Below the pieces are notes generated by a model. That model ran no database searches. It was not told where the DNA came from and was given only the letters and a program-made list of their open reading frames with translations. Below, in pieces: positions 1-14,466 of a stretch of DNA of 64,000 bases (the first letter of the stretch is position 1; every line of letters begins with the position of its first letter). The translations under genes were made by a program, and so were the position numbers. The DNA comes from an uncultured Dehalococcoidia bacterium (lineage in GTDB: Bacteria; Chloroflexota; Dehalococcoidia; Lucifugimonadales; Lucifugimonadaceae), in the NCBI GenBank assembly GCA_958295935.1, contig OY282385.1, forward strand, positions 1,736,001 through 1,800,000, written 5' to 3'.

Positions 1-2438
1 GGGTTGGTGGCGAGTTGGGCGAAGCGGCGTCCGTCGATTGTGTCCCGGAAATGTCCGTTGGTGGCATAGGCCTTGAAGTAGGTCTTGATGACGCCGACGG
101 AGCTCGCCCTCGGGGGCCTATGTTGCGCTACGAACTTGGCGAACTCCTCCTCCAGCAGCTCATCCTTGGACTTGAAGCCAGGTATGAGGTTGAAGACCCG
201 TTCCAGGATCTCCCGGAGGGTCAGCCTGCGGTCCACGGCAGCGGCCTTACGCAGTTTCTCGAGGTTGTAGTACTCCTCGGGTTTGTCGAAGACCTCCCGG
301 TTCACGTAGTCGATGACCTGGTCCCACTGTCCGGCCTCCACGGCCTTCTTTACGGTCGCGTCCTCGCGTACCGTGTCGGCGAACCGGTCGAACATTACCC
401 GGTCGATCTTCATGCCCTGTGGTCCGACGGTCTCTACTATGATGCTTGAGAGTATGTCGCGGCCAAGGTGCTCGTAGCCGCCTAAGGCCGTTGGGCCGTT
501 GCCGCTTCCCTCGATCCCACCCTTGCCCTTGGCGGATTGGAGTCGCGGCAGGTGCAGCGCTTCGTCATAGTTGAACTCAGTCTCGAAGTACTCGCAGTTG
601 GCGAAGAAGTCGAAGAGCTTGAACTTGCTCTTCTCCGGCTCCGCCACCTCGTCCGCAATACTGGAATTGAATAGCTGGTCCAGGAAGTCGTGCTTGCGTG
701 TGCCCCGTCCCTTGATCTGTATGAAGTCCGTGGGAGAGAAGATGGGCCGGAACAGGCCAATGTTCAGGACGTCGGTGCAGTCGTATCCGGTGGTCATCAT
801 GCCGACGGTCACGCACACCCGCGCCTTGCTCGTCCGGTAGGCTGGCAGGAAGTTGGCTGATCCCATCAGGTTGTTATTGGCGAAGTTGATGCTGAACTGC
901 TGAGCATCCGGTATCTGGGACGTAACCTGCAAGGCGAAGTCCGACCGGTACTTGCCGGGGAACATGGCGTCTGCCATTTCATTGAGGGTCTGCGCCAGCC
1001 GGGCGGCGTGATTCTGGCTTACGCCGAAGACGATGGACTTGCCGACCTCGCCGCTGACTGGGTCGCGCAGCGCGTTCTCCAGGAAGGTCTTGCAAAAGAC
1101 CCGGTTGGTGTCGTCGGAGAAGAAGCGCTTCTCGAACTCGCGCTGATAGAAGGTCTCTCTATGCTCTTCCCCGGTGTCGTCGGTTGAGGATACGACGAAT
1201 CCATCGTCGGCGAGCAATTGAGTGGTTACGTCGGTGCGGGCGTCAACCACGGTGGGATTGACCAGGTAGCCGTCCTTCACTCCGTCGAGAAGCGAGTACC
1301 TGAAGGTGGGTTCCCTGCTCTCGCAGCCGAAGGTGCGGTAGGTGTCGAGCATCAACCGGCGCTCCGCCTCACGGGGATCGTGGAGGTTGGGGTCGGTACT
1401 GCTGAAGCCATGGAGGTAGTTGCGCGGCGTGGCGGTAAGGCCGAGCTTGTACCCGACGAAGTAGTCGAACACCGCCCGGGCGTTGCCGCTGATGGAGCGG
1501 TGCGCCTCGTCGGAGATCACGAGGTCGAAGTCGGTCGGCGAGAAGAGGGCTTGGTACTTGTTGTTGAACAGCAGCGACTGGACAGTCGTGACGACTATTT
1601 CAGCGCTTCGCCAGTCGTTGCGCTTCTCTTTGTATACAACCGTACTGAAGTCCGCCGAGAGCAGAGCGTCGAAGACCTTCCTGGCCTGCTCCTCGAGTTC
1701 GAGGCGGTCCACGAGGAACAGCACGCGGGAGGCGTTGTCGGAGCGTAGGAAGAGCTTTATGACAGCCGCGGCGGTGAGGGTCTTGCCGGTGCCCGTGGCC
1801 ATCTCGAACAGGAAGCGGTCGTTGCCGTCTCTTACGGCCTGCTGGAGTGCATGGGCGGCCCTGAGTTGATAGGGGCGCAGGAAGCGCAGGTTGTTGGCCT
1901 TGATGAAGCCAGGCCGCTCGGCGTCGTTCTTCCACGCCGCTTCCGAGGCGTAGTTGGGCCGCTGGCTGAGGACGATGTAATCATCGCCGACCCTCTCATC
2001 CAGCAGGCGTTTCGGGTCGGGCTTGACCTTGTTGTAGCGTGCGACTGACTCCGGCGCGGGAAAGGACGTGATGATGTAAGGGTTGCCCCGCTCCAGGTCC
2101 CAGAAGTAATGCAGGTTCCCGTTGGAGAGGATGACGAATCGGCAGTTCTGGGCGCGGGCGTATCTGCGGGCCTGTTCCTTCCCGGTGAGCGGCTGCTTAT
2201 CTTCGGACTTGGCTTCCAGCACTATCAGCGGGAATCCTCTGGAATCCAGCAGGAGGAAGTCGATGAAGCCATTCCCGGTCTTCTGGAAGTCATCGCCAAG
2301 CGCGTCGAGCTCTGTCTGCTTGATCGAGACGCCGTGCTCCAGGCAAACGTTGGCGGGCTTGTCTCCTTGAGGAAGGAAGCGCCAACCCGCCCTCTCCAGC
2401 AGCTTATTGATCTTTATGCGCGCGGTGGCTTCGTTCAT
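1..2438 (-). CDS. hsdR: Type I restriction R subunit (EcoEI-like HsdR), 3' end outside window
   Basis: Translocase/nuclease subunit of a type I restriction system, which would cut unmodified DNA together with HsdM and HsdS. The visible 812 residues begin with a PD-(D/E)xK nuclease fold (Asp60, then Glu75-x-Lys77 in VLEAK), followed by an SF2 motor: Walker A ATGTGKT at 214-220, DEAH at 310-313, TATP at 335-338 and QIKGRGTR at 574-581. The reading frame is still open at base 1, so the C-terminal HsdM-binding part lies outside. The start is the ATG at 2438, just before the nuclease domain. The spacing and the EcoEI-like motor (short linker, no separate DUF559) support HsdR, but hsdM and hsdS are not visible and would have to lie to the left. 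It could alternatively be a solitary HsdR-like nuclease-helicase. The family call is firm; membership of a working system is inferred. Confidence 0.85.
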   Translation of the reverse strand, partial: MNEATARIKINKLLERAGWRFLPQGDKPANVCLEHGVSIKQTELDALGDDFQKTGNGFIDFLLLDSRGFPLIVLEAKSEDKQPLTGKEQARRYARAQNCRFVILSNGNLHYFWDLERGNPYIITSFPAPESVARYNKVKPDPKRLLDERVGDDYIVLSQRPNYASEAAWKNDAERPGFIKANNLRFLRPYQLRAAHALQQAVRDGNDRFLFEMATGTGKTLTAAAVIKLFLRSDNASRVLFLVDRLELEEQARKVFDALLSADFSTVVYKEKRNDWRSAEIVVTTVQSLLFNNKYQALFSPTDFDLVISDEAHRSISGNARAVFDYFVGYKLGLTATPRNYLHGFSSTDPNLHDPREAERRLMLDTYRTFGCESREPTFRYSLLDGVKDGYLVNPTVVDARTDVTTQLLADDGFVVSSTDDTGEEHRETFYQREFEKRFFSDDTNRVFCKTFLENALRDPVSGEVGKSIVFGVSQNHAARLAQTLNEMADAMFPGKYRSDFALQVTSQIPDAQQFSINFANNNLMGSANFLPAYRTSKARVCVTVGMMTTGYDCTDVLNIGLFRPIFSPTDFIQIKGRGTRKHDFLDQLFNSSIADEVAEPEKSKFKLFDFFANCEYFETEFNYDEALHLPRLQSAKGKGGIEGSGNGPTALGGYEHLGRDILSSIIVETVGPQGMKIDRVMFDRFADTVREDATVKKAVEAGQWDQVIDYVNREVFDKPEEYYNLEKLRKAAAVDRRLTLREILERVFNLIPGFKSKDELLEEEFAKFVAQHRPPRASSVGVIKTYFKAYATNGHFRDTIDGRRFAQLATN

Positions 2439-2615: not shown

Positions 2616-5600
2616 TCACGCCCAAAGCCAATCGAGGTCCGAGAACGCGAGACTCCGCTGGAAGTTGTCGATGTTGTCCCTAACGTTGAGGATAAGGCAT
2701 CGGTCGTTACCACCATTCTTCTCACCGCGTAGACCCCGACCGATCATCTGGAAATAGAGGTTGGGGCTGTATACCGGTCGCGCGACTATGATGGCTCGAG
2801 TTCGGGGCGCATCGAATCCTTCTCTAAATATGCCGTAGTTGACGAGTACCTTGATATCCCCCGAGCGGAACTCCTCGACGATACGACGACGGATGGGTGC
2901 ATTGGTATCAGCGTGTACGGCACGCGCCCCTATGCCTTTTCTGGTCAGAAGAGCGGCGACGACTTTCGAGTGTTCGACTGATGTTGCGAAGATGAGTGTA
3001 GGCCAGTCGGGATCGACGCTGTAAATGTGCTCAACGTACGCTTCGCAGATGTTCTCCGTGCGACTAACGTCACGAGCAATTCGATTCTCGACGCTTCGAG
3101 GTAGCCACGGGGCTTCTCTGAACTGGCGCAACTCTTCCTTGGAGAGGGAGAATTGCCCTCCGTCGATAGTTTTGTGGTCGGCTTGAGCGAGCACGTGCAT
3201 ATTCTGGAGTTCGGAGATCACGTTTTCAGCGTCGTTGCTCTTGAACGCGTCCCTGTCCAACCTGTTGGCGCCGTAACGATTTACGAGGCGGGTGGTTTCT
3301 CGCTCGTCATGACCCCTGTACGGAGTCGCGGTAAGACCGATCAGCAACGGCTCACCGGCTCTCCTCCATCGGGTAAGCCCGAGCTCCTCCATGACCGACG
3401 TGAACGTGCGTGCAACCGACCTGTGCGCCTCATCGAAGACCAAGAGCTTGAAGTCAGCCAAGAAATCGTATGACTCTGGCTGACTGTTAATCTTTGCGTT
3501 GAGTGTCTGGATCGTCGCGACGATCACGTGCATATCGTCCGTCGGCAGGGGGGCAGGTTGCCCGCCCCACATTCTGGAAATTCGTAGTTGGGTCGCCTCA
3601 CTGCCCTCGCTTGACCAGACTTGGCGCCACGCTTGAACAGCTTGCTCACACAATTCGTCGCGGTCGGCGACCCATAGAATGCCGCCATTAAAGCCGTTTT
3701 CTCGAATCGATTCGACTATCGCCTGGACCGCGACACGCGTCTTCCCTGAGCCCGTGGGCATGCTGATCAAGCCTCTTCGTTCGCTGATCGCTCCATCCGA
3801 CCGGATCAGAAATTTCACATTCTCAACGACCTTGCGTTGGTAGTCGTGAAGCTGAGGTAAGGAGTAAGGCCCTTCCACCTCGATGTACGGGTCTCGCCCA
3901 GCGTCTCGCTGTCCAGCCCATTCATCTCCGAATCCCAGCGACCGAACGAATTCGATTGCCCTGAGGGACCCAGCCCATCGCTTTGGAGGATCCAGATGCG
4001 CCAACGTATCACGATACTCGCGAAGCGCATCGGTATGAAAAATTGCGATCGCGGCCTCGGCTACTTCCACTCCAGTAAGGCGCCCACCAGACTCCTTAAG
4101 TATTATTTTGACCAACCCCTCCGGTAGACGCAGGCGCAACTCGGTCTCGCCGACTGCCTTGAGAAGACGTTCTGCGTCTGTGGAGCATCCCCTGATCGCA
4201 TTCCGCTCTATCTGTGCGTCATGGGATGTCTGACGGCGAACGATCTCTTCGATTTGGTAGGCTGTCAGCTGTAAACCAATCTCTGGCAGAACCGATTGAA
4301 GTTCTTCTATTTCATCGTCCTTCCGTCTGAGGTAGACGACTCCGTCTCTGGCTACGCAGTCTGGTTCGACCGTGACGTTATCGATCTGGATCCCATCACA
4401 CCGAATAAGCTCAAGGTCAGTCTGTTCCTCTGACAGGTGAGATTTTAAGCTTGGCCATGCGTCGATCAACGGAATCCGTTCATCTTCACCTATTGGCCTT
4501 AATTGCCCGGGAGTATTAATCTCGATCTCGAAGGCTTTTCGAATCTCTACGGACCGCGGATGCTCTAGCAAAAAGCTCAGGGCCTTTGGGTTCCGCGGCG
4601 GGTTTTCCAGCGCGTCCGAGAGTGGGTAAATCCCGTCCTCCGTTTTGATACGCCCGTACTGTCGCAACGACCCCAGAGCAGGTGACACAAAGTCGATGCT
4701 CCCGTACGTCTCTTCTCGCGTGTCATGACTCATGGTCCAGTGCTTATAGGTATCATCCAAAGCGAGCAAGTCCCATGTGTATAGTGCACGGCCTTCCTCT
4801 GAAAGCTCCTCCAGCACATCCAGCGGACCGCTGGTAGTAGTCTTATTAAATTTGAGTCTCTTCTCTTGAGGAGTCCTCCCTACTTTGCTTCGAGCATCCT
4901 CACGGAACTCGTCTTTGCTTCGGCTGATAAAATATTCACTTCGCCAAGGGGACAGTTGGTGTCTAGCTCTCGGCGCTTCGACCGCGCCGAGTTGTTCGAG
5001 CAGCGGCAAATCCGCAGCATGGAACTGGATGTCGATGGTGACATTCCTGTCTCGACTGCCGTCCGCGGGCACGATACTACCAGGCAGCAGCGCGTAGAAT
5101 AGAGTGCGCCACTCTCCGCTGAGTGTGCGGACCCGAAGGATTTCGCGCCAATCATCGTACGATTGGATCACCCTAGCAGCTGTGAGGTGGCCGGCTTCAC
5201 GGGCAAGAATCCAGAATTCGCGCCAGTCATTGTACGATTGAGCCATCTCACTGATCACTTTACGAGCTGCCTCGTAGGCACGGACGCGGGTCCAGAATCC
5301 TTGCCTACCTGCGCTCCCGTCGACGTTTATCAGCTGGATGTCTTGACGGGCGCGAGTCCAATCTGCGTCAGGGTCAGCTAGCGATTCGTACATAAATTCG
5401 TGCAAAGTCTTAATATTGCTGAAGATCTTAGATGCAAAGTCCCGAAATTCTGTTTCAGAGGATGCTGGCCTAATGCCTAGCTCCTTCAACGCTCGCAGCG
5501 TTTCGCCGTCCTCTTGTAGTTGTGGGTGGACCAGCGTACTTGGGTTATGGACATCGCTCTCACCTAATCGAACGGTGTCTGGATCGGGCTTGACCCACTT

Positions 5601-7325
5601 TCCACCGGCCGTAAGCACGATGTCACCGTAGTCATGCCGCCACCCTGCAGGTTTCGGAATCAGAGATGCGGTCTTGATAGCAGCCATCGAGGCATGAAAA
5701 ACAAGCTGCTCGCAGTCCGCTTTCAACTCTGAGGTGGCGGCTATGGCTTGTTGTGACTTTGCATTCTCGATCAGCGCCTCTAGCCATTCTGAGATGGAGG
5801 CCCTGGGAAGAGAAAGATGGGCATCGTAAAGCCGGTCGAGTGCGGAGAGCCTGGTTCGATTCAGCGCGCTGTGATGGAGCCAATTCGATGGACGGCCATC
5901 GAAAGATGCCCAACGCTCAAGAGCATTCCGAGCTATCTCCTCCCGATCCGGTGTCAACTTACTTGGTGGATACAAGACCTCGTGGATATTCCGTAAATTG
6001 CAGTCTTGATCGGGAACAATGTCAAGGTCTTGGAGATGCGAGTGCAATCGGTCCCGCAATCGATTGCTGTGCTCCGAGTCACCGGTCTCTCTCCTACGCG
6101 GCAGCGCATCCAAATGTTTGGCTGGATCATCTACTTTCGAGAGTCGCGTTAGAGTGCCAGCTACCATCTCTGCCGCTGCGTCGATAAGTTCTTCGTTGTA
6201 TATGCCAGGCAGCAGATTCTGGCGGTCTTCGTTAGTCTTCCAAGGGGCATTTAGGATTCCTGCCAGTAGGCTGGTTGTCATGGTAGGGAAGTATGCCCAG
6301 AACTTACCTGGTTCGTTGAGTCGGTCAATAGGCGCTGCCCACGAAATCTGAACCTCATTTGCATTGTCCAAAGCTCTGCTGTCGCTTTTGGCGTCAGAAG
6401 AAAGTTTATGATTGACGCGTGTGAGCATCCACTGGGTGGAATCACCTCCATCGTCAAGTAAGCGGTAGCCGTCTTCACTACGCAGGCTGATTATGCGTAC
6501 ACCATTCTGACCGTTAACCTCTAGCTCAAGTTGTGATACATGATCGACGAAGAGTAGAAATTCAGGCGGGAAATCTTTGATCTGCTCGGAAAGACCGTCA
6601 TATGCTCCGGGCTTTAATGGGAGGCGAATAATGTTAATTGCCCAACCCTTCATCAGCTGGCGTAAAATGGGGTCTGATTCCATCTCCGGCCAAGGATCGA
6701 TAGGCTCTGGCAGCCGCAGAACGGGATAACGCTCAGCGTTAGGTGCAATAGATCGTATGAGCTTGGCCGACTTCGTGCGGTCGAACTGAAATGATCCGGA
6801 ACGGCTGAAGAACTCGGGCGTGTCGGAAACGGCGAGAACCGACTTGAAACCCAACCCAAATCGGCCTATCTCGGCGGTTCCCCGCTTGCTGGATAGACGG
6901 GCGAACATGAGCGCCGTCACTCCGTCGGAATCGACAGGCTGCCCCTCGTCAGCACAGTAGAGGTGGGTTGGCGTTAGTCGAATCCAAATGCGCCCGCCCT
7001 TTGACCCTGCAAGAGCGTCCGCCCCGTTTTGCACCAGTTCGAACAGTTGACGGTTTGCGTAGCCGCCGCGTGACGTGTCCTCTTCGAGATTAGCGTGCTC
7101 AGCCACCAAGTTCGGTTGGTTGCGATAGGCTTCTAGAGACTTTTCACGCTCTTCGCGGATATAGACCCCTATGGACCCGTCTGGTCCGGCCCAATCGGTG
7201 CGTGAAAGGGGCCTTTCGCTTGGAGCCGCTGGCGGTTTTGTAGTTTCCCCTTGGTTCGCGATGACTTCACGCCCGCGAAGCCTTCTCCTTCTTTGTTTCC
7301 GGTTTTGCTTACCACGTTTGACCAT
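2616..7325 (-). CDS. GHKL/sacsin-like ATPase fused to SF2 helicase, probable defence protein
   Basis: A 1569-residue fusion. The N-terminus is basic, then a GHKL (Hsp90/sacsin-type) ATP-binding domain at about 60-330: N box ELVQNGADA at 96-104, DEG at 126-128 and glycine box GRFGLGFKS at 154-162. About 850 residues follow in which I recognise no domain. The last 400 residues are an SF2 helicase: LHDYQ, Walker A PTGSGKT at 1190-1196, DEAH at 1298-1301, TATP, and QMIGRGLRG at 1526-1534. No nuclease motif is obvious. The start at 7325 has AGGAG 7 bases upstream. Its place directly before an HsdR gene, and the use of GHKL plus helicase modules in other phage-defence proteins, suggest nucleic-acid surveillance, but that is inference. 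A DNA-repair helicase remains possible. Confidence 0.8.
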   Translation of the reverse strand: MVKRGKQNRKQRRRRLRGREVIANQGETTKPPAAPSERPLSRTDWAGPDGSIGVYIREEREKSLEAYRNQPNLVAEHANLEEDTSRGGYANRQLFELVQNGADALAGSKGGRIWIRLTPTHLYCADEGQPVDSDGVTALMFARLSSKRGTAEIGRFGLGFKSVLAVSDTPEFFSRSGSFQFDRTKSAKLIRSIAPNAERYPVLRLPEPIDPWPEMESDPILRQLMKGWAINIIRLPLKPGAYDGLSEQIKDFPPEFLLFVDHVSQLELEVNGQNGVRIISLRSEDGYRLLDDGGDSTQWMLTRVNHKLSSDAKSDSRALDNANEVQISWAAPIDRLNEPGKFWAYFPTMTTSLLAGILNAPWKTNEDRQNLLPGIYNEELIDAAAEMVAGTLTRLSKVDDPAKHLDALPRRRETGDSEHSNRLRDRLHSHLQDLDIVPDQDCNLRNIHEVLYPPSKLTPDREEIARNALERWASFDGRPSNWLHHSALNRTRLSALDRLYDAHLSLPRASISEWLEALIENAKSQQAIAATSELKADCEQLVFHASMAAIKTASLIPKPAGWRHDYGDIVLTAGGKWVKPDPDTVRLGESDVHNPSTLVHPQLQEDGETLRALKELGIRPASSETEFRDFASKIFSNIKTLHEFMYESLADPDADWTRARQDIQLINVDGSAGRQGFWTRVRAYEAARKVISEMAQSYNDWREFWILAREAGHLTAARVIQSYDDWREILRVRTLSGEWRTLFYALLPGSIVPADGSRDRNVTIDIQFHAADLPLLEQLGAVEAPRARHQLSPWRSEYFISRSKDEFREDARSKVGRTPQEKRLKFNKTTTSGPLDVLEELSEEGRALYTWDLLALDDTYKHWTMSHDTREETYGSIDFVSPALGSLRQYGRIKTEDGIYPLSDALENPPRNPKALSFLLEHPRSVEIRKAFEIEINTPGQLRPIGEDERIPLIDAWPSLKSHLSEEQTDLELIRCDGIQIDNVTVEPDCVARDGVVYLRRKDDEIEELQSVLPEIGLQLTAYQIEEIVRRQTSHDAQIERNAIRGCSTDAERLLKAVGETELRLRLPEGLVKIILKESGGRLTGVEVAEAAIAIFHTDALREYRDTLAHLDPPKRWAGSLRAIEFVRSLGFGDEWAGQRDAGRDPYIEVEGPYSLPQLHDYQRKVVENVKFLIRSDGAISERRGLISMPTGSGKTRVAVQAIVESIRENGFNGGILWVADRDELCEQAVQAWRQVWSSEGSEATQLRISRMWGGQPAPLPTDDMHVIVATIQTLNAKINSQPESYDFLADFKLLVFDEAHRSVARTFTSVMEELGLTRWRRAGEPLLIGLTATPYRGHDERETTRLVNRYGANRLDRDAFKSNDAENVISELQNMHVLAQADHKTIDGGQFSLSKEELRQFREAPWLPRSVENRIARDVSRTENICEAYVEHIYSVDPDWPTLIFATSVEHSKVVAALLTRKGIGARAVHADTNAPIRRRIVEEFRSGDIKVLVNYGIFREGFDAPRTRAIIVARPVYSPNLYFQMIGRGLRGEKNGGNDRCLILNVRDNIDNFQRSLAFSDLDWLWA

Positions 7326-12288: not shown

Positions 12289-14466
12289 ATGAGTCACATC
12301 TTGAAGCATCCAGTCAGTCTGGCCCTCGGCATCATTGCGGTCGCAATGGCCGTGGCCGCCTTGGTCGTCTCACTGATCGCAATCAGCGATAACGATACAG
12401 CGAGGCCCGCTGACGCCTTGGCGAGCGCTTCCAGACTCCACCAGCCCGGGGTTTACACCAAGGCCTTTGTTGAACAGGCCATTGAGCGCTACGACTCCGA
12501 GGGGCGCGGCGGCGCCATCTCCTACTACAACACCAAGGAAAGCATGAGCGGCGACTGGTACGTCTTCATCATCGACGAGGCCGGCAAAATCGTCTCGCAC
12601 GCTGCTCGACCGGAGCGAATCGGCCTCAGCTTGGACAACCTGGTAGACGTGACCGGCTACAGCTACGGCTTAGACTTTGCAGATACCACAGAGAACGGCA
12701 GCTGGGTTAAATATGCCTACCTGAACCCAGCGAACGGACACTACGAGAACAAGCATTCTTGGGTAGTGAAGCGCGACGGACTCATATTCGGTTCGGGATG
12801 GTACGAGAGGTCTACCGACTCCCTCCTGCCGTCCAAGACGGAAGAGCCGGAAGCGTATACCAAGGCCTTTGTCGAGCGGGCGCTCCGCCGATACACCGCA
12901 CAGGGACGGGACGCAACCTTTTCCTACTACAACTCGATGGAAAGCGTGGACGGGGACTGGTACCTCTTCATCATCGACGAGAACGACAAGATGGTGGTGC
13001 ACGCCACCGTGCCGGACAACATAGGACAGGATATGAAAGGTCCTCTGGGGACGGACAGCACGGGGTACGACTTCGGCTCGGAGATGCTGACGGCCACGGA
13101 GGATGGCAAGTGGGTCAGCTACGTATACATAAACCCAGCCAGGGGTCAGGAGGGCAAGAAGCATTCTTGGGTAGTAAAGCGCGACGGTCTCATATTCGCT
13201 TCGGGGTGGTACGAGACGTCTACCGACGCGCCTACCGACGCGCCCACCGACGCCTTGCCGCCTCCCAGGACGCAAGAGCCGGGCGAGTACACCAAGTCCT
13301 TCGTCGAGCAGGCGGTCCGCCGATACGCCGCACAGGGACGGGACGCGACCTTTTCCTACTACAACTCGATGGAAAGCGTGGACGGGGACTGGTACCTCTT
13401 CATCATCGACGAGAACGACAAGATGGTGGTGCACGCCACCGTGCCGGACAACATAGGACAGGATATGAAAGGTCCTCTGGGGACGGACAGCGCGGGGTAC
13501 GACTTCGGCTCGGAGATGCTGACGGCCACGGAGGATGGCAAGTGGGTCAGCTACGTATACATAAACCCAGCCAGGGGTCAGGAAGGCAAGAAGCACTCGT
13601 GGGTGGTGCGTCGCGACGGTCTCATATTTGGTTCCGGATGGTACGAGAGGTCTACCGATTCCTCGCCGCCTGCCAGGACGCAAGAGCCGGGAGCGTACAC
13701 CAAGTCCTTTGTCGAGCAGGGGCTCCGCCGCTACACCTCGGAGGGCCGGGACGCGGCCTTTTCCTACTACAACTCGATGGAGAGCGTGGACGGGCAGTGG
13801 TACCTCTTCGTCTTCGAGGACGGCAAGTTGGTGGTGCACGCCACGGTGCCCGAGAACATAGGGGCGGATCTGAGAGGTCCTCTGGGCACGGACAGTGCGG
13901 GCTACGACTTCGGCTCGGAGATGCTGACGGCCACGGAGGATGGCAAGTGGGTCAGCTACGTGTACATAAACCCTGTCAGCGGTCAGGAGGGCAAGAAGCA
14001 CTCGTGGGTGGTGCGTCGCGACGGTCTCATATTCGGTTCCGGATGGTACGAGATGCCGACCGACGCTTCGCCGCCTTCCAGGACGCATGAGCTGGGCGAA
14101 TACACCAAGTACTTTGTTCAGCAGGCGGTTCGCCGATACACCTCAGAGGGCCGGGACGCGGCCTTTTCCTACTACAACTCGATGGAGAGCGTGGACGGGG
14201 ACTGGTACATCTTCGTCGTCGACGAGGACGACAAGTTGGCGGTGCACGCCACGGTGCCCGAAAACATAGGGCAGGATTTGAGAGGTCCTCTGGGCACGGA
14301 CAGTGCGGGGTACGACTTCGGCTCGGAGATGCTGACGGCTACGGAGGATGGCAAGTGGGTCAGCTACGTATACATAAACCCTTCCAGCGGTCAGGAGGGC
14401 AAGAAGCACTCGTGGGTGGTTCGTCGCGACGGTCTCATATTTGGTTCGGGATGGTACGAGAACTGA
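12289..14466 (+). CDS. Membrane-anchored protein with five tandem Cache-like sensor repeats
   Basis: A 725-residue protein. An uncleaved signal anchor at about 9-32 is followed by five copies of a domain of about 115 residues, starting at residues 56, 190, 334, 470 and 605. Each copy reads YTK.FV...RRY...GR, then SYYNSMESVDG.WY.F..., a VHATVPENIG strand, GYDFG, and KWVSYVY.NP...G.....HSWVV.RDGL.FGSGWYE. This matches the ligand-binding Cache (PAS-like) domains normally found singly in chemoreceptors and histidine kinases. Here no kinase, HAMP or methyl-accepting part follows. Linkers are Ser/Thr/Pro-rich (one has repeated TDAP). It likely sits outside the cell and binds small ligands, perhaps handing them to a partner, but no function is proven. 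The first copy is the most divergent. Confidence 0.7.
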   Translation: MSHILKHPVSLALGIIAVAMAVAALVVSLIAISDNDTARPADALASASRLHQPGVYTKAFVEQAIERYDSEGRGGAISYYNTKESMSGDWYVFIIDEAGKIVSHAARPERIGLSLDNLVDVTGYSYGLDFADTTENGSWVKYAYLNPANGHYENKHSWVVKRDGLIFGSGWYERSTDSLLPSKTEEPEAYTKAFVERALRRYTAQGRDATFSYYNSMESVDGDWYLFIIDENDKMVVHATVPDNIGQDMKGPLGTDSTGYDFGSEMLTATEDGKWVSYVYINPARGQEGKKHSWVVKRDGLIFASGWYETSTDAPTDAPTDALPPPRTQEPGEYTKSFVEQAVRRYAAQGRDATFSYYNSMESVDGDWYLFIIDENDKMVVHATVPDNIGQDMKGPLGTDSAGYDFGSEMLTATEDGKWVSYVYINPARGQEGKKHSWVVRRDGLIFGSGWYERSTDSSPPARTQEPGAYTKSFVEQGLRRYTSEGRDAAFSYYNSMESVDGQWYLFVFEDGKLVVHATVPENIGADLRGPLGTDSAGYDFGSEMLTATEDGKWVSYVYINPVSGQEGKKHSWVVRRDGLIFGSGWYEMPTDASPPSRTHELGEYTKYFVQQAVRRYTSEGRDAAFSYYNSMESVDGDWYIFVVDEDDKLAVHATVPENIGQDLRGPLGTDSAGYDFGSEMLTATEDGKWVSYVYINPSSGQEGKKHSWVVRRDGLIFGSGWYEN
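12454..14460 (+). repeat. Five tandem coding repeats of about 402-432 bp
   Basis: Repeat units start at 12454, 12856, 13288, 13696 and 14101, giving spacings of 402, 432, 408 and 405 bases. Units 2 and 3 share long identical stretches (for example about 12915-13160 against 13347-13592), showing recent duplication or gene conversion. Unit 3 is lengthened by a threefold TDAP linker in front of it. Confidence 0.8.

Follow-up and report, generated by a model that had tools for sequence, protein, structure and literature searches.

The window, by which we mean the whole 64,000-nucleotide stretch that was analysed, raises the question of what a bacterium might do with one giant protein that joins a sacsin-type GHKL ATPase to an SF2 helicase. 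The window is part of a single-contig genome of 2.75 Mb, and its source bacterium is of a kind that occurs in sponges.

Gene and domain layout of the giant protein

The giant gene is complete and, like all of its features given here, lies on the minus strand, with its ATG at 7325 and its stop codon ending at 2616; the ORF contains no internal stops and encodes 1569 amino acids. An earlier sequence-only reading had placed the gene correctly at 2616-7325 and had described an Hsp90/sacsin-type ATP-binding domain and a complete SF2 helicase, both of which we confirm. The protein begins with a basic-rich, polybasic tail (residues 1-44, MVKRGKQNRKQRRRRLRGRE..., 7194-7325) that occupies the place of the M[KR]xEYDFSKGxRG tail of the BrnT-linked homologues described below. 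The sacsin-type GHKL ATPase with its transducer-like domain follows (residues about 69-434, 6024-7121), assigned from NCBIfam P_loop_sacsin (71 bits, cut-off 50), PADLOC TmtA and predicted structure; the Pfam SACS and HATPase_c matches were both under cut-off. Alignment of 38 proteins located the N-box FELVQNGADA (residues 95-104, 7014-7043) and the G2 motif GRFGLGFKS (residues 154-162, 6840-6866), with E96, L97, Q99, N100, D103, G128, G154, G157, G159, F160 and K161 invariant. The SF2 (ResIII/RadD-like) helicase core (residues 1158-1537, 2715-3854) is complete by both Pfam and predicted structure, and Pfam ResIII (96 bits, 3e-27) and Helicase_C (54 bits, 2e-14) scored above cut-off. The same alignment placed its Walker A motif MPTGSGKT at residues 1189-1196 (3738-3761) and its Walker B motif DEAH at 1298-1301 (3423-3434); P1190-T-G, G1194-K-T, the DEAH, TAT 1332-1334, GFD 1503-1505 and Q1526/M1527 are invariant, and GRGLRG 1529-1534 is found in 37 of the 38 proteins.

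Structure prediction gave a consistent picture of the two ends. In the model of residues 41-1150 (mean pLDDT 83.9, pTM 0.57), residues about 69-434 fitted sacsin SR1 best (Z 14.6, rmsd 3.3, 186 residues), followed by SMCHD1 (Z 13.4) and by TRAP1, Hsp90 and GyrB (Z about 12-13), middle domains included. For the model of residues 930-1569 (pLDDT 80.6, pTM 0.74), the nearest structure was RadD (6jde; Z 23.1, rmsd 4.7, 331 residues), and the NCBIfam RadD profile scored 104.3 bits against a curated cut-off of 720. The middle region was taken as residues 435-1150 (3876-6023), which are mostly helical, with short strand-strand-helix units recurring. The count of about 850 residues with no recognised domain, given in the sequence-only reading, proved too high: residues 69-434 fit ATPase-plus-middle folds, so that part of the supposedly unknown middle is, on the predicted model, the GHKL transducer, and about 600 residues are left. 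For residues about 550-1150 there was no match in Pfam or NCBIfam, including none to a repair-helicase family, and the PADLOC TmtA profiles end at 548-605; in the fold comparison, made with the models of 41-1150 and 930-1569, matches to the ATPase and helicase parts took up the whole of the lists. A search for internal repeats returned one weak pair (residues 569-621 versus 731-785, E 0.04), and an insertion at residues about 638-692 is absent from most homologues.

The chain showed no nuclease of a known kind, either by Pfam family match or by conservation of an HxK or D-x(n)-[DE]xK pattern in the alignment. In particular, Pfam found no HSDR_N nuclease domain in the giant protein, whereas the adjoining HsdR gene does carry one.

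Homologues and their genomic settings

Our scan of genome contigs yielded 55 loci, 37 of them with proteins of 1472-1796 amino acids. Since these 37 full-length homologues, which are 32-73% identical to the window copy, share its layout, the GHKL-helicase fusion is no chance join, and the fusion family is real and conserved. Its hosts are Chloroflexota, Pseudomonadota, Acidobacteriota, Gemmatimonadota and Actinomycetota, and on our reading most homologues come from sponge-derived MAGs. The distribution is patchy: within the window's own family 3 of 76 genomes carry the giant gene, and in the phylum a handful among 400 genomes have it at full length. The window copy shares 63% identity with a Caldilineaceae copy and 47% with one from its own family (L045/G006), on well-supported branches, which points to transfer, and the G+C content of the giant gene is about 53-57%, compared with about 60% in its surroundings. 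The plasmid and phage collections held no full-length homologue; the one found in a viral-collection contig (L079) has neighbours that give no sign of viral origin. As far as the open literature searched goes, the family is undescribed: no published description of it was found there, which is weak evidence, and a YprA/ARMADA preprint mentions neither GHKL nor sacsin.

Two related genes deserve mention. The window's genome carries a C-terminal remnant of a second giant copy, 70% identical (L006 9521-10339, G000:C1:1359475-1360335), and genes reading as Cas1 and Cas9 lie about 5 kb away from it. A 1094-residue protein at L048 (7958-11242) has the same helicase domain, with repeats that read as ankyrin-like replacing the sacsin part, and groups within the fused clade of the tree.

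An HsdR-like type I restriction subunit gene (3-2438, minus strand) lies 177 nt downstream of the giant gene and runs off the window edge. Past HsdR, beyond the window (L005), are an HsdM-S fusion, a HicB-like gene and a TPR-PIN protein, and further to the left of this island is a type I-E-like CRISPR-Cas set, whose Cas names were read from the sequences. The TPR protein (L005 13120-17046, 1308 amino acids) carries a PIN domain, is of the TPR-GreAB-C-PIN type and lies between the CRISPR-Cas and type I R-M genes. No drmA or drmB was seen by eye among the genes round the window copy, some of which were covered by a profile scan. Within the window, a 725-residue protein (12289-14466) is built of five similar repeats whose sequence resembles that of Cache-type extracellular sensor units.

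The sequence-only reading was right that the HsdR neighbour exists, but took it as support for phage defence, and in this it did not hold up: the gene is missing beside the nearest homologues (L008-L013), and we set HsdR adjacency aside as support for function. The surroundings of the homologues vary, instead of forming one conserved housekeeping context. At L079, HsdS and HsdR genes of a type I R-M system lie near a 36% identical homologue. In four mycobacterial genomes, UvrD-like, DrmA (1e-242 for L055) and DrmB genes come in a row after the homologue, as profiled with one representative per gene; three of the four have a divergent C5-methylase gene upstream, and two have a DrmD-like gene further downstream. 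These loci are DISARM-type operons; their homologues are only 32% identical to the window copy and may have another role.

Most sponge-type copies stand singly amid unrelated housekeeping genes. The enrichment of defence genes round homologues that the sequence-only reading proposed as a check was not seen beside them: PADLOC genes made up roughly 7 of the 70 nearest genes and at least 4 of 55 control genes, with no excess, the counts being approximate (the 25 commonest families were listed) and the control set small and drawn mostly from the same genomes. At L023 the giant gene is preceded by a large helicase gene and followed by a RecQ-like one, and the PADLOC hits there, ZacC and PsyrT, probably belong to these neighbours. 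Upstream of the giant gene at L027 (5839-9630), PADLOC reported the candidate defence protein PDC-S68 (1444 bits).

The helicase also occurs unfused. In the tree, the unfused helicases and the fused clade are set apart from phage helicases with a support of 100. The nearest unfused helicases lie beside MORC-type GHKL genes at five loci (L075, L076, L077, L081 and L007) and beside C5-methylase and HhH-GPD glycosylase genes at two (L073 and L074); the settings of the closest ones also include DNA methylases and phosphorothioation-like genes. The GHKL partners at L075, L076 and L081 match PF13589 (72-80 bits). These split GHKL and SF2 loci match the pairing of a GHKL ATPase with an SF2 helicase that has been described in restriction operons (Iyer 2008, PMC2292703). 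One such operon lies in the window's own genome (L007 4946-9756, G000:C1 about 468945-473755) and consists of an SspD-like gene, genes for a 420-residue helicase and for a MORC-type GHKL protein of 626 residues, and a further ORF whose product reads as a PLD nuclease; L077 has SspD-like, helicase and MORC-type GHKL genes in the same order. An Arthrobacter plasmid carries, in a Mza-like locus with a C5-methylase, a 1096-residue protein that matches the sacsin part only.

Several known systems resemble parts of the giant protein. Its sacsin-type GHKL domain and the following 100-170 residues or so match the PADLOC profiles of TmtA (206 bits, 2e-61, residues 55-548), which we take to be the Tiamat system. 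The best profile was nevertheless covered at 12-472 of 1538 only, leaving the helicase and most of the middle unmatched; the match stops at about residue 550-605, whereas the giant protein goes on to end in an SF2 helicase. RadD is the best helicase match by both NCBIfam and fold, although the score lies far below the curated cut-off, and RadD is not known to have a GHKL part. The MORC/paraMORC and SF2 operons (PMC2292703) share the combination of GHKL ATPase and SF2 helicase and contribute unfused helicases to the nearest relatives, but they spread over two or three genes what the giant holds in one chain, and the giant's GHKL domain is of sacsin type, with no PF13589 match in Pfam and no nuclease found in the chain. 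The helicase core also matches profiles of PbeA from the Dnd-Pbe system (75 bits), a protein with an HKD/PLD nuclease of its own, whose partners are an ABC-type ATPase and DndE (PMC6459918, PMC10853773). Finally, VcSduA, a GHKL-Shedu fusion with tested anti-phage activity (PMC12137116), likewise joins an N-terminal GHKL domain to an effector that acts on DNA, but its effector is a PD-(D/E)xK nuclease and that of the giant is a helicase.

A branch linked to the toxin gene BrnT

At 18 of the 51 loci with upstream sequence, a co-oriented BrnT gene lies directly before the giant gene and ends at or near its start, and in 13 full-length homologues it abuts that start. The BrnT of L020 matches PF04365 (3e-27). 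Genomes hold 0-5 BrnT genes each (20 genomes), and for L020 and L021 the giant-linked one is the sole BrnT of the genome. All 13 BrnT-linked full-length proteins open with M[KR]xE-Y-[DE]-F and the remainder of the M[KR]xEYDFSKGxRG tail, two of them behind an earlier possible start codon, and among the 25 other proteins this start is found in L032 alone. The association of BrnT with the tail gave a Fisher value of 2.6e-9 when shared descent is ignored, and BrnT needs 3 changes on the tree, where tail and BrnT occur in a single branch; the window's branch and the mycobacterial copies are without both. At L032, BrnT is missing and the tail is retained; just before the giant gene there, upstream of 2807, lies a pair that reads by eye as HicA-HicB.

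When run against 41,118 six-frame segments of the loci collected by then, a profile of the tail recovered giants, fragments included, and two small ORFs, both of which sit downstream of stand-alone BrnTs in loci chosen for holding BrnT; at a third stand-alone BrnT locus (L195) it matched only at E 0.6. Applied to 301 genomes of the phylum that were unselected for BrnT, the profile gave 18 short-ORF matches, 12 of which have BrnT directly upstream, and in some short tail ORFs the stretch that follows reads as a ribbon-helix-helix antitoxin. Pfam found no antitoxin family in the N-terminal tails and the two small EYDF ORFs, apart from a BrnA match for the L179 ORF. At L037 a more distant BrnT is paired with a giant start that reads as BrnA-like, a call that Pfam does not make. 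Three decayed giants (L040, L051 and L057) have kept BrnT and the tail while losing long inner parts in frame, although some of these copies could be assembly errors.

Judged from these sequences, the BrnT-linked giants probably take the place of the antitoxin. The arrangement resembles BrnT/BrnA, and CoCoNuTs with an upstream BrnT-like gene (PMC11090510), in that one branch of homologues has BrnT immediately before the giant gene on the same strand; it differs in that the partner is a 1500-residue GHKL-helicase that begins with an antitoxin-like segment, the window copy excepted. These findings do not bear directly on the window copy, which has no BrnT gene upstream and lacks the tail, and the tail profile (A6) matches nothing in the window's genome. 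Just upstream of another copy from the window's family is a pair that reads by eye as HEPN-MNT (L066 6140-6836).

Proposed function and its alternatives

A role in defence is the best reading of the giant family, and from its sequences and settings we consider it likely. What speaks for defence is the conservation of motifs in 38 proteins, the patchy spread, the transfer, the lower G+C content, the DISARM, type I R-M and split settings, the sacsin-only protein of the Mza-like plasmid locus, and as precedents the GHKL and SF2 restriction operons (PMC2292703) and the GHKL-nuclease fusion VcSduA (PMC12137116); against it stand the housekeeping surroundings of most sponge-type copies, the lack of a defence-gene excess beside them, the unconserved HsdR, RadD as the best helicase match, the low identity of the mycobacterial homologues and the large unassigned middle. 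The phage-defence role that the sequence-only reading had proposed keeps the two-ATPase chain and the defence-like setting on its side and loses the HsdR neighbour and the enrichment of defence genes; its suggestion of a stand-alone system fits most copies, but not the 13 full-length ones that pair with BrnT.

More specifically, we favour, with some reserve, an accessory, horizontally moving and probably antiviral protein in which one chain combines two motors that have a gene each in related defence operons. Such a protein would recognise foreign or abnormal nucleic acid, DNA being a guess. By analogy, its GHKL ATPase would form a dimer that shuts like a clamp once ATP is bound, serving as a sensor-clamp, and its helicase would translocate on the bound nucleic acid or remodel it; this picture of a sensor clamp plus translocase, already drawn in the sequence-only reading, derives from the folds. 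Since the search of the chain showed no nuclease, the block would be due either to remodelling as such or to a partner, for which the candidates are the co-oriented type I R-M genes at the window and the BrnT RNase in the antitoxin-tailed branch. We infer the ligand, the clamp closure, the translocation, the block of phage replication and the release of a toxin alike.

The BrnT-linked branch allows an extension of this proposal, which we put forward tentatively, that of an infection sensor with a leashed toxin. Here a BrnT-cognate antitoxin start would be joined to the GHKL ATPase-helicase, standing in place of the usual DNA-binding part, and the two motors, by sensing nucleic acid, would control whether the RNase toxin stays restrained or is set free. 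As a toxin-less member, the copy in the window would then act on nucleic acid itself or via its neighbours.

Control of toxins might instead have come first, the giants being antitoxins in which a GHKL-helicase replaced the DNA-binding part, and toxin-less copies such as that of the window having lost or exchanged their toxin. The BrnT genes upstream at 18 of 51 loci, the tail in 13 of 13 BrnT-linked full-length copies versus 1 of 25 others, the small tail ORFs of other genomes with BrnT directly upstream (12 of 18), the three decayed copies that retain BrnT and tail, and the HEPN-MNT-like pair before the L066 copy all fit this explanation. We nonetheless think it unlikely: only one branch (3 changes) has tail and BrnT, the window's branch and the mycobacterial copies lack both, and Pfam saw no antitoxin in the tail. 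The close coupling to BrnT in that branch also argues against a factor of DNA repair or recombination, in which a RadD-like helicase and a MutL/Hsp90-like ATPase would work on stalled or broken DNA of the cell itself. The place of RadD at the top of the helicase matches by NCBIfam and fold is consistent with such a factor, as are the MutL-UvrD logic of a GHKL protein plus helicase (PMC2292703) and the many copies amid housekeeping genes; yet the RadD score, at 104 bits, is far below the cut-off of 720, no more than 3 of the family's 76 genomes carry the gene, and the DISARM, type I R-M and MORC settings speak against it. We regard this explanation, too, as improbable.

Least probable is that the protein serves the neighbouring type I R-M system alone, as its regulator or accessory: it shares the strand of HsdR at a distance of 177 nt, and L079 has similar neighbours, but the nearest homologues have no R-M neighbour.

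If the defence reading of the giant family is true, two-gene GHKL-plus-helicase modules of restriction-like systems can turn into one protein, and what sacsin-type defence ATPases sense would become testable. The toxin-linked branch is the strongest new lead: if its proposed role is true, a defence motor can assume the role of an antitoxin, and a direct coupling of an RNase toxin to nucleic-acid sensing could be put to the test.
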